Shown here: positions 39,568-42,316 of the stretch, piece by piece
Layout of the letters: each line of letters opens with the position of its first letter
How positions within the stretch are numbered: the first letter of the stretch is position 1
NCBI RefSeq assembly: GCF_018617485.1
Contig: NZ_JACSKH010000001.1
Location: 1,922,001 to 1,986,000, forward strand
DNA from: Exiguobacterium sp. s124
Lineage (GTDB): Bacteria; Bacillota; Bacilli; Exiguobacteriales; Exiguobacteriaceae
Length of the DNA: 64,000 nt
Direction: 5' to 3'
Notes under the pieces: model-generated
What the model was told of the DNA's origin: nothing
Databases searched by the model: none
Seen by the model: the letters and a program-made list of their open reading frames with translations, nothing else
Translations under genes and position numbers: made by a program

Positions 39568-41034
39568 ATGAAGCAAATTGTTGTCATTGGAGCCGGACTA
39601 GGTGGACTGAGCGCTGCCGTCACGCTCGCCACACATGGCTATGACGTCACAGTCATTGAAAAGAATGAACATGTCGGCGGAAAACTTATGCCCGTCATTA
39701 CCGACGGTCATCGTTTTGACTTTGGTCCGAATACGATCACGATGCCAGATGTGTTCCGTTCCGTCATCCGAAACAGTGGTGCCAACCCGGATGACTATTT
39801 TGAATTGATCAAACTCGACCAACATACCGTCAATCATTATTCGGACGGCTCCTCGTTCACATTTAGCGCCGACCGGGCACAGCTCGAGGCGGAAGTGCGA
39901 CGTTTAACCAATGATCAAATGAAGAAAAATCAATTACAGGCTTATTTAGACGAAGCGGACAAGTTATTCCGTATCGCGAACGAACGCTTCTTCACCCGCA
40001 TGGAGACAAAATTAGACCCGGGTCTTTGGGCGGACATGGTAAAAGTGCACCCGCTCCAAAGTTTACACGCCCTTCATCAAAAGTACTTCAAAGACAAGCG
40101 CATCATCCAGGCACTTGACCGGTATGCGACATACATCGGCAGCAGCCCGTACGTGACGCCAGGAACGTTCGCGCTCATCGCGCATCTAGAATTAAATGAA
40201 GGCGTCTACTTCGCGAAGGGTGGCAACTGGAACATCGCGAAAGGGTTTGCGAAGCGAGCGAGTGAACTCGGAGTGACGTTCCGTCTCGGACACGAAGTGA
40301 CGAAAATCGAGGTCTTGAACGGGAAAGCCCATGAAGTCGTCGTCGACGACAAAGAAGTCATCTCTTGCGATGCCGTTTTGCTCAATGGCGAGCTACTCAC
40401 GCAGTATCCTCGACTTGTCGACGCGAAAGACCGTCCTTCTTTCCCGGTCCCGACACGCGACACCGTCGAACCGTCCATCTCTGCATTCGTCTTAATGATC
40501 GGACTATCGAAGCGATTGAACCTTGCTCACCATAACGTCTATTTCTCTGACGACTACAAGCGAGAATTCAAATCACTCTTTCAAGAAGAGCGCTATGCGG
40601 ACGAGCCGACTATCTATATCTCCAATTCATCCGCAACCGATTCATCGATGGGCGAGGCTGGCGACAATCTGTTCATTCTCGTCAATGCACCTGCCCATTT
40701 GACTGACATCGATGCCGACACGTATGAGCATTTAATTCGTCGTCGGTTGCGCGAGTTCGGCGTGGACTGGGAAGATGAAGAGGTCCTTTTCCATCAACGT
40801 GTGACACCGCAAGATTTAACGCGTGATTTTTATGCATACTACGGTGCACTTTACGGTACGTCGGCCAATTCGAAAAAAGGGGCATTCTTTAGACCGGCAG
40901 CTCGGTCGACGGACGTGTCAAACATCTGGTTTGCAGGTGGTTCGACTCATCCTGGAGGCGGGAGCCCAATGGTCACGCTTTCAGGACAATTCGCGGCACG
41001 ATCGATGTTAGAGGACATACCTCTGACAATATGA
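39568..41034 (+). CDS. crtP: Diaponeurosporene oxygenase-like flavoprotein (CrtP type)
   Basis: A 488-residue FAD enzyme of the carotenoid desaturase family, with the dinucleotide start VVIGAGLGGLSAAVTLATHG. Several stretches agree with staphylococcal CrtP, which oxidises the terminal methyl group of diaponeurosporene to an acid: YIGSSPYVTPGTFALIAHL, LAHHNVYFSDDY, YGALYGTSAN, and the end GGSTHPGGGSPMVTLSGQ. The assignment over a plain desaturase rests on this similarity recalled from memory. Its ribosome binding site is AAGGGGGA. It ends the operon; the hairpin-rich RNA follows 62 bases later. Confidence 0.82.
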   Translation: MKQIVVIGAGLGGLSAAVTLATHGYDVTVIEKNEHVGGKLMPVITDGHRFDFGPNTITMPDVFRSVIRNSGANPDDYFELIKLDQHTVNHYSDGSSFTFSADRAQLEAEVRRLTNDQMKKNQLQAYLDEADKLFRIANERFFTRMETKLDPGLWADMVKVHPLQSLHALHQKYFKDKRIIQALDRYATYIGSSPYVTPGTFALIAHLELNEGVYFAKGGNWNIAKGFAKRASELGVTFRLGHEVTKIEVLNGKAHEVVVDDKEVISCDAVLLNGELLTQYPRLVDAKDRPSFPVPTRDTVEPSISAFVLMIGLSKRLNLAHHNVYFSDDYKREFKSLFQEERYADEPTIYISNSSATDSSMGEAGDNLFILVNAPAHLTDIDADTYEHLIRRRLREFGVDWEDEEVLFHQRVTPQDLTRDFYAYYGALYGTSANSKKGAFFRPAARSTDVSNIWFAGGSTHPGGGSPMVTLSGQFAARSMLEDIPLTI

Positions 41035-41061
41035 ACATTTTGTGAACGCGAGTTTCGACAC

Positions 41062-41090
41062 TTGTCGACAATTGAAAGACGTGATAATAT
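41062..41090 (+). promoter_or_regulatory. Promoter of the hairpin-rich RNA
   Basis: TTGTCG (41062-41067) and TAATAT (41085-41090), spacer 17, with an extended -10 TG at 41082-41083. Expected start point near 41097. Confidence 0.6.
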
Positions 41091-41096
41091 CATATT

Positions 41097-41427
41097 CGAG
41101 TTCAAGCAGTTCTGTAACGTTTGTTGCACCTGTAGCGATCGAATGGCTTCCCCGAGCCTCATCGCGTTTTGAACTTGTCACACCCGAGAAAAAAGTGATG
41201 AGCGAGTTTCCCCACTCGTATCCCGTAGTTGAGACAGCTTGCGTATGATGTTCCCCCTTAGTCCATCAAGCATCCTGTTTCAACGAAGATGTCCCAACTG
41301 ATTCATTCCCCATGAATCCCGGCACATCTTTAGGGCTTCATCACAAATCGATTCATTCATTTCCCCGATGAATGGATCACATAACGCTTACGCCACTTTT
41401 GGTCCCCCGCCAAAAGTGGTTTTTTTT
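41097..41427 (+). ncRNA. Non-coding RNA of six hairpins with C-rich loops (unrecognised)
   Basis: No plausible gene lies here, yet a promoter stands in front and an intrinsic terminator at the end. Each hairpin shows CCCC or more in its loop. H1: GGCT-TCCCCG-AGCC inside GCGAT/ATCGC and AGTTCAA/TTGAACT (41099-41175). H2: GCGAGT-TTCCCC-ACTCGT (41202-41219). H3: a 10-bp stem at 41228-41284 topped by GATG-N13-CATC with five C in the loop. H4: AAGATGT/ACATCTT around GATTCAT-TCCCC-ATGAATC (41286-41330). H5: an 11-bp stem, loop TTCCCCG (41350-41378). H6: CCACTTTTGG-TCCCCCG-CCAAAAGTGG and eight T (41393-41427). UCCC occurs nine times. It is not 6S RNA, tmRNA, RNase P or SRP RNA as far as their hallmarks show. 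A role in pairing with GGGG ribosome binding sites is inferred. Confidence 0.75.
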
Positions 41428-41431
41428 GCGC

Positions 41432-41464
41432 AAAAAAACTGTAGACGCGAGGAGCATCTACAGT
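41432..41464 (-). terminator. Terminator of crtM
   Basis: ACTGTAGA/TCTACAGT with an 11-base loop, followed by seven T on the minus strand. It stops the crtN-crtM transcript just before the convergent RNA gene. Confidence 0.85.
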
Positions 41465-41476
41465 AGATTGGATGAC

Positions 41477-42316
41477 TTATAATTTTGCTAACAACTTTCC
41501 TTTTTGTAAGGTCGATACGTATGCCCGTTTTGTGAAGACGTCATATCCGTTTGCTCGAGCTGCATCTAAAATTCCTTCATATAGAAGAGCTGCTGCTTGA
41601 ACCGGTTTTCGACTGGCGAGCGGATAGAGGTGATGGGTCGTACGTGCCCGTTCATACAAGGACTCCGCGCGCTTCGCCAACGCCTCCCATAGCTCGATGA
41701 AGGAAGGTGTCACTTCACGTTGCTGTAACATCTCTTCACTTACGCCATACTGTCGCATCATCGTGCGTGGCAAATAGATGCGGTCTCTATTCAAATCTTC
41801 CCCGACATCTCGCAAAATATTGGTCAGTTGCATCGCAATGCCGAGGTCGATGGCGCCTTGTCGGAGCTGACGTTTCGTCTCGGCGTCTTGATTCGGGACA
41901 AGAATCGGGAGTAGCATCAGACCGACCGTACTCGCGGCATAATAGCTATACTGCTCGGTCTCTTCGAGCGTCTCATATCGTGATTTATGTAAATCCCACT
42001 TCATGCCTTCCGCTAGCTCAAAGAATGGATTGACGTCCATCTCATAGCGTTGCCATACATCTCGAAGGGCGACCCATAGCGCTTCATCCTGGTCATATCC
42101 TGCTAAAAAGCGATCGAATGCATGCAAAAACGACGCCAAACTCTCTTCTGGACGGTCTGATTCATCGACCGCATCATCAAGAGTCCGACAAAACGTATAC
42201 ACGGCCATGACCGCTTGTCGATCTGGTTTTGAGAGCAAAGAGAAGGCCCGATAAAAGGTCAACGAGCCTTTCTTCATGATTTCCTCACATTGACGATACG
42301 CTTCTTGTGTCGTCAC
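41477..42316 (-). CDS. crtM: Dehydrosqualene (4,4'-diapophytoene) synthase
   Basis: A 279-residue enzyme that joins two farnesyl diphosphates, the first step of C30 carotenoid synthesis. Both Asp-rich motifs are present: DDAVDE (about residues 47-52) and NILRDVGEDLNRDRIYLP (about 166-183). YSYYAASTVGLMLLPI is also typical of the squalene/phytoene synthase family. Placement next to crtN-type desaturases favours CrtM over a C40 phytoene synthase. The start is a GTG at 42316, inside the preceding gene; that gene overlaps by 32 bases. Confidence 0.92.
   Translation of the reverse strand: MTTQEAYRQCEEIMKKGSLTFYRAFSLLSKPDRQAVMAVYTFCRTLDDAVDESDRPEESLASFLHAFDRFLAGYDQDEALWVALRDVWQRYEMDVNPFFELAEGMKWDLHKSRYETLEETEQYSYYAASTVGLMLLPILVPNQDAETKRQLRQGAIDLGIAMQLTNILRDVGEDLNRDRIYLPRTMMRQYGVSEEMLQQREVTPSFIELWEALAKRAESLYERARTTHHLYPLASRKPVQAAALLYEGILDAARANGYDVFTKRAYVSTLQKGKLLAKL

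Follow-up and report, generated by a model that had tools for sequence, protein, structure and literature searches.

The window analysed here is a stretch of 64,000 nucleotides from Exiguobacterium sp. s124 (contig NZ_JACSKH010000001.1, positions 1,922,001 to 1,986,000). Between the genes of two carotenoid enzymes, crtP and crtM, its + strand is predicted to encode a structured RNA with a C-rich sequence in the loop of each of six hairpins (Table 1). Comparisons were made across the 38 genomes of the Exiguobacterium family, 19 from the Exiguobacterium genus of the window (g1, which includes the window's own genome, G000) and 19 from a sister genus (g2, which includes G030); the predicted RNA is about 331 nt long in g1 and up to 365 nt in g2. 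It lies between crtP and crtM in every one of the 38 genomes, always 65-86 bases past crtP, and crtM is less than 200 bases past the RNA in 37 of them. The sole exception is G011 (locus L017), where about 1.1 kb of other DNA after position 1891 separates the RNA from crtM. A reading of the window made earlier from the sequence alone (the sequence-only reading) had seen no credible gene in this gap. The alignment agrees, and a hidden protein gene was rejected: indels whose length is not a multiple of three occur throughout.

Table 1. Features of the crtP-crtM interval, in positions of the window.
Feature	Position	Strand	Remarks
crtP, amine-oxidase-type carotenoid enzyme	39568..41034	+	flanks the RNA in 38/38 genomes; not claimed as a target
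Box TGAACATTTTGTGAAC, ResD-site-like	41032..41047	+	about -65 to -50 of the predicted start
Predicted promoter, TTGTCG (41062-41067), 17 bases, TAATAT (41085-41090)	41062..41090	+	TGA ahead of the -10
Predicted whole RNA, 331 nt	41097..41427	+	start approximate, placed from its distance to the -10
5' three-way-junction domain, modelled as R1	41097..41177	+	predicted fold
Hairpin 1, loop TTCCCCGA	41145..41158	+	C-run 41150-41153; CCCC loop closed by U.G
Hairpin 2, loop TTTCCCCAC	41202..41219	+	C-run 41210-41213; UUCCCC in g1
Hairpin 3, 13-nt loop with TTCCCCCTTAG	41228..41284	+	C-run 41253-41257
Hairpin 4, loop ATTCCCCAT (UCCCC)	41285..41331	+	C-run 41308-41311
Hairpin 5, loop TTTCCCCGA	41350..41378	+	C-run 41363-41366; UCCCC loop closed by U.G
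Hairpin 6, terminator, loop GGTCCCCCGCC then T8	41392..41427	+	C-run 41404-41408; CCCCC loop closed by U.G; hairpin itself 41392-41420
crtM, squalene/phytoene synthase family	41477..42316	-	other flank of the RNA

The promoter with an extended -10 that the sequence-only reading had proposed stands in part. It is present, and it falls within sequence conserved in both genera (alignments of 19 g1 and 19 g2 loci), its g2 counterpart being TTGTAC, 17 bases and (TGA)TACGAT. However, TTGTCG-17-TAATAT is a weak match to the consensus and was passed over by a mechanical promoter scan, which preferred an overlapping pair three bases downstream, TCGACA (41065-41070) and TATCAT (41088-41093) with 17 bases between them (10/12). 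Because of this overlapping pair, the start near 41097 is only approximate. A Fur box at the -10 was also considered and rejected, since the g1 palindrome TGATAATATCA is not retained in g2 (by eye). At the other end, hairpin 6 had been called a terminator with eight T, and it is indeed the only + strand terminator that a terminator scan found within 40900-41500. A - strand terminator hairpin with a T-run, for the crtM operon, lies back to back with it (41433-41464).

Hairpin 6 would also terminate transcripts of the crtP operon, and crtP transcripts could run into the RNA. Could the whole element then be a structured 3' untranslated region or terminator of the crtP operon, which protects the mRNA and has no role in trans? 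The position 65-86 bases past crtP in 38/38 genomes is in keeping with this explanation, and so is the scan of the window, which shows no + strand terminator separating the two. Yet both genera have a conserved promoter region (weak consensus match as it is) and a box in the space that separates crtP from the RNA, and stability does not need invariant unpaired C-loops. We consider such a role very unlikely.

The minimum free energy of the + strand from 41097 to 41427 is -113.9 kcal/mol, as against -69.8 +/- 4.4 for 100 dinucleotide shuffles (z -10). All six C-loop hairpins of the sequence-only reading recur in the fold with their loops at the same positions. Every run of four or five C in the RNA falls in a loop, with mean unpaired probabilities of 0.86-1.00 across the six. 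The loops had been argued not to be a product of chance. In the minimum free energy structure all six C-runs have at least four unpaired bases, whereas 300 shuffles average 1.46 such runs and never exceed 5. The hairpins are not, however, separate from one another as had been claimed. Hairpin 1 is held within a three-way junction closed by 41097-41105/41169-41177, and hairpins 2-4 within a multibranch domain closed by 41195-41201/41338-41344; only hairpins 5 and 6 are free of both enclosing domains. When both strands of 0.8 Mb of G000 and 1.6 Mb of G030 were scanned for C-loop hairpins, the locus proved to be the densest cluster per 330 nt (five hairpins in G000, four in G030), followed by a four-hairpin stretch at G000 1579648 and then by three-hairpin stretches that include the RoxS-like RNA described below. 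The four-hairpin stretch (G000:C1:1579648, +) lies on the strand opposite to a serine-dehydratase-like gene (by eye).

The sequence-only reading had named loops that are not conserved, on stems that drift freely, as the outcome that would speak against it. The 38 genomes show the opposite, with loops that are nearly fixed and stems that covary. All 38 genomes share TTCCCCGA in loop 1 and TTCCCCCTTAG in loop 3; UCCCC(C)G persists in loops 5 and 6 on stems that have changed, with compensatory changes in the stem of hairpin 5; and the U.G closing pair of hairpins 1, 5 and 6 is invariant in both genera. Loop 2 in g2 is GACCCAC in 18 genomes, which leaves only CCC, and GCCCCAC in the remaining one, and loop 4 is CCCT in one of the 19 g1 genomes (L017). 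An extra CCCC is found in the 5' domain of g2. The most divergent g2 genome (G024; RNA at 1158-1484 of L040) has seven C-runs of at least four bases, including a CCCCC in loop 4.

Covariation was counted within each genus. Two-sided changes affect 9 pairs and 29 cells in g1 (4.5 and 8.0 in shuffles) and 12 pairs and 50 cells in g2 (6.8 and 17.2 in shuffles); 0/500 shuffles reach these values in either genus, and both genera exceed slid-partner controls. The 102 pairs of the g1 structure are 99.5% paired and the 71 of the g2 structure 98.6%, and the number of further pair types is matched by 6/500 shuffles in g1 and by 395/500 in g2. The locus contains a conserved RNA-like fold with selected loops, along with a conserved promoter region and box.

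A DNA search finds the RNA once per genome in 19/19 g1 genomes and in 0/19 g2 genomes, and inspection of the region beside crtM reveals an RNA of the same plan in 19/19 of the latter. The covariance search that had been suggested for this fold was also run. A model of the 5' domain (Infernal, stricter filters) matches 38 of the 398 genomes of the class, which are exactly the family, and gives no match in the 360 class genomes outside it. A pattern of the loop-3 hairpin matches 24 stretches in a collection with one genome per species (84,980 species), all of them in Exiguobacterium, and none in viral contigs. Spread beyond the family was thus rejected, both the 5'-domain model and the loop-3 pattern being confined to it.

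Rfam offers no family for the RNA; there is no match, and three permissive hits, of an unrelated kind, are far under the cut-off. By computation, the RNA shows the trait of the class of C-rich SD-pairing sRNAs, namely C-runs that are conserved, unpaired and complementary to the Shine-Dalgarno sequences (SDs) of putative targets. RNAIII of Staphylococcus aureus, which also encodes a peptide, is one large relative in design. Like the studied RNA it is structured, and its C-rich hairpin loops 7, 13 and 14 contact G-rich SDs (PMC2837412, excerpt). The differences are that the window has no Rfam match, that the studied RNA has more C-loops, and that its putative targets are metabolic rather than virulence genes. 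In LhrC of Listeria, three redundant UCCC sites bind a G-rich ribosome binding site (PMC4132741, excerpt). LhrC and the streptococcal csRNAs, however, are short RNAs from five gene copies, whereas a single gene here supplies six or seven C-runs. The 6C RNA of Actinobacteria, another phylum, has C-run loops on two hairpins; the studied RNA has six, and again the window has no Rfam match. As far as the literature consulted goes, the statement that no RNA with six such loops is known still stands, but several C-loops per RNA are known, as in RNAIII and LhrC (PMC2837412 and PMC4132741, excerpts).

The repetition of one loop motif on many stems also recalls a different mode of action. The decoys CsrB and RsmZ repeat GGA loops for CsrA, whereas the loops of the studied RNA carry C-runs. 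By analogy, the repeated UCCCCG hairpins with their conserved U.G would bind a C-binding protein and remove it. Such a decoy would fit the many stems of one loop type, as well as the U.G pair that closes hairpins 1, 5 and 6 without exception in both genera, and the loop G is unnecessary for pairing with AGGGGGA. On the other hand, loop 3 is long and sequence-specific, the SD conservation described below is left unexplained, and we know of no C-specific binding protein in these bacteria, which counts against the idea. A protein decoy is, in our estimate, distinctly improbable.

The closest likeness is to RoxS/RsaE (RF01820), which also has unpaired C-rich runs complementary to SDs. The RF01820 model, however, has no match in the window at the gathering threshold and none in 41030-41480 at E up to 10. 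At 112 positions, the model has about a third of the length of the studied RNA, which stands at crtP-crtM in 38/38 genomes while another RNA fills the place beside pepF and a YjbH-like gene. From 41097 onward there is no Rex-type palindrome (by eye), whereas the RNA in that other place starts with one in g1 (TGTGAAATCAATCACA). Given the missing model match, the different locus and the lack of a Rex-type site, the studied RNA is not a member of RF01820.

The other RNA is read as a diverged RoxS from its sequence and setting (G000:C1:1705266, - strand; loci L100-L103 and L124-L148). The Rfam RsaE model puts no genome of the family above its cut-off, and its four weak hits are all of one locus kind, between pepF and a thioredoxin-family ORF that we take to be YjbH. 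RoxS of Bacillus subtilis is also located between pepF and the YjbH gene. A pattern of the 5' end detects the RoxS-like gene in 25/38 genomes (19 g1, 6 g2), always with both neighbours, and a script added a 26th in G030, which brings the totals to 19/19 g1 and 7/19 g2; neither the RsaE model nor the 5'-end pattern gives a RoxS-like match in the other 12 g2 genomes. In g1 this RNA has UCCCCG loops in addition to the Rex-type palindrome at its start. The Rfam RsaE cut-off therefore misses the diverged RoxS-like gene of the Exiguobacterium family.

A second likeness to RoxS lies upstream. It was a conserved stretch of 8 nt at around -65 of B. subtilis roxS that led to the discovery of increased roxS expression through ResDE (PMC4409812, excerpt); a similar box, ResD-site-like by sequence, precedes the studied RNA. 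The box starts inside the crtP stop codon and is aligned in all 19 g1 and 19 g2 loci, the g2 version being TGAACGTTATGTGAA at -64 to -50. Ahead of the g1 RoxS-like RNA, GTGAACATTATGTGAC or a near form is found at -67 to -52; the box is looser ahead of the g2 RoxS-like genes. A pattern search of four genomes (G000, G009, G023 and G030; two g1 and two g2) found the exact box only ahead of the studied RNA. Other sites with one mismatch number 9, 6, 6 and 6, respectively, compared with 3, 1, 1 and 2 matches for a reversed control pattern, the box being short. These one-mismatch sites lie ahead of the RoxS-like RNA in 2/2 g1 genomes, ahead of cydA in 4/4 genomes (cydA was profile-tested in two and judged by eye in two) and ahead of a pyridine-nucleotide oxidoreductase in both g2 genomes (one tested); the rest appear unrelated or intragenic (by eye). 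Ahead of cydA in g2 the box overlaps a Rex-like TTGTGAA...ATCAC (by eye; cydA loci L169, L166, L168 and L171). G000 has genes for ResA-like, ResB and ResC-like (by eye) proteins, a response regulator and a kinase in a resABCDE-like order. The box resembles a ResD site, and ResD may control the RNA.

What would the C-loops pair with? The sequence-only reading had proposed a multi-target repressor of genes with GGGGG-type SDs, and the conservation and identity of these genes support that part of the proposal. The script used to assign gene starts gives preference to strong anti-SD pairing. In a first sample, GGGGG occurred in the SD of 79/760 and 78/751 genes (about 10%). Of 450 reciprocal best hits between the genera, 61 with inconsistent starts were removed before counting; among the 389 remaining pairs, 24 orthologues have a GGGGG SD in both genera where 5.7 are expected (odds ratio 14.2, 7.0-28.7). 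In the same pairs AGGAGG gives 3.3 (1.9-5.7), and other SD motifs are also high (GGTG, 7.9; GGAGGT, 9.6). A first sample of 84 orthologues, mostly non-syntenic and without the filter for consistent starts, was too small: one shared GGGGG against 0.5 expected, not significant. One of the examples listed as GGGGG genes did not prove conserved, namely crtP. Its SD is AAGGGGGAC in the window but AAGGAGGAA in G030, the one g2 genome compared, and crtP was rejected as a conserved target. Since its GGGGG SD is not kept there, the carotenoid genes look like neighbours rather than conserved targets, and the location beside them seems incidental.

By profile, the 24 include pyruvate carboxylase, fumarase, both succinyl-CoA ligase subunits, SdhC, a lipoyl E2 (labelled from a 48-residue piece), terminal oxidase subunit I, a Rieske protein (from a 140-residue piece), EtfA, EtfB, NAD kinase, OppA-like, Opp3B, Opp3C, FtsZ, PyrF, Ndk and Hfq; one (A448) stayed unnamed. 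The hfq gene itself (L187:14321-14566) is thus among the genes whose GGGGG SD is common to both genera. TCA-cycle, anaplerotic or respiratory functions account for 10/24 of this set and for 0/30 random orthologues without GGGGG (p 8e-5), with labels that were not assigned blind and with operon-mates (sucCD, etfBA, opp) counted singly, so that the 24 are not fully independent. The 24 were scanned partly at E 1e-10 and partly at 1e-50, four by Pfam only, and the 30 background proteins at 1e-50; 13 of the background that were unnamed at 1e-50 were taken to Pfam at 1e-4, which named 11, none of them TCA or respiratory, and left two unnamed. In S. aureus, RsaE targets opp genes. The NAD kinase gene lies some 2.3 kb from the RoxS-like gene and, by the gene order, may be the counterpart of PpnKA and not of the RoxS target PpnKB. 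There is overlap with RoxS: B. subtilis genes lowered by RoxS include ppnKB (an NAD kinase), sucC, sucD, sdhC, odhB and pyc (tables of PMC10433868, in part), and processed RsaE binds sucCD (PMC6435200, excerpt). The conserved GGGGG-SD gene set is of the RoxS type.

Loop 3 allows a more specific comparison. Its exact complement, CTAAGGGGGAA, is the sucC SD in 3/3 g1 genomes examined, and sucD has one mismatch. In a search of loci cut from six genomes, exact complements among the matches listed are also the SDs of ribF-like, lipoyl-E2, leucine-dehydrogenase-like, EtfA-like, PTS and cytochrome-c-like genes (by eye), and one (L092) precedes just a 30-aa frame. Ranking by loop-3 pairing energy places etfB, ndk, etfA, sucD, fumC and sucC first, and thus puts the conserved set on top, which ranking by anti-SD pairing does not. 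The between-genus correlation of pairing energies is not in favour of loop 3 (0.378, against 0.395 for the anti-SD), and it is just above the best of 30 shuffled loops (mean 0.227, best 0.351); loop 1, at 0.218, is no better than the shuffled loops.

A RoxS-like RNA with CCCC loops in the same genomes could by itself maintain the GGGGG SDs and explain the target signal. The studied RNA would then do another job, for example on a few targets, or as a competitor of RoxS for a common factor or for an RoxS sponge. The presence of the RoxS-like gene beside pepF and the YjbH-like gene in 19/19 g1 and 7/19 g2 genomes, the UCCCC loops of its g1 form and the RoxS type of the gene set all speak for this explanation. 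Against it, the studied RNA has more C-loops, one of them with an 11-nt complement in sucC SDs, as well as a similar box, and its loops are among its most conserved parts. We regard regulation by the RoxS-like RNA alone as rather unlikely.

The explanation that we favour, and consider probable on the strength of these sequence comparisons, is that the locus encodes a second, larger C-loop sRNA that works alongside RoxS at ribosome binding sites of the GGGGG type; our confidence is slightly reduced by the weak promoter match and by the ambiguity of the NAD kinase. The gene would be that of a trans-acting sRNA with its own promoter and terminator, carrying six C-loops (seven C-runs in one g2 genome), mostly UCCCC, on independent stems. 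Activity of ResDE, a two-component system of respiration, would bring about joint synthesis of the RNA and the RoxS/RsaE orthologue, and the C-loops of the RNA would pair with GGGGGA Shine-Dalgarno sequences, loop 3 (UUCCCCCUUAG) being able to form perhaps 11 pairs with sucC. Pairing would block translation of mRNAs for the TCA cycle, the respiratory chain, electron-transfer flavoprotein, NAD kinase and oligopeptide uptake, and with several loops in each molecule, a single RNA would be able to engage many different mRNAs, or more than one simultaneously. Transcription, ResD binding, RNA-RNA pairing, repression and the division of work between the two RNAs are steps that we infer.

Exiguobacterium is a widespread genus according to the title of PMC10837837, the consulted portion of which gives sRNA counts per clade and no loci, and among the publications searched none treats Exiguobacterium together with RsaE. 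The RNA described here is undescribed, is absent from Rfam and is a candidate for a new family. It is probably regulatory, and it may help RoxS to turn down enzymes of respiration and energy metabolism. Its design poses a testable question, namely why one RNA retains six or seven near-identical target-binding loops. We would suggest, tentatively and with more doubt than belief, that Exiguobacterium has two SD spellings, AGGAGG and AGGGGG, which the ribosome accepts alike, and that the latter serves as an address: under limited respiration, a two-RNA system with one multivalent hub of six or seven C-loops would switch off the AGGGGG genes together, as a single metabolic regulon. The regulons of sRNAs may be readable from the SD spelling that is conserved between genera.
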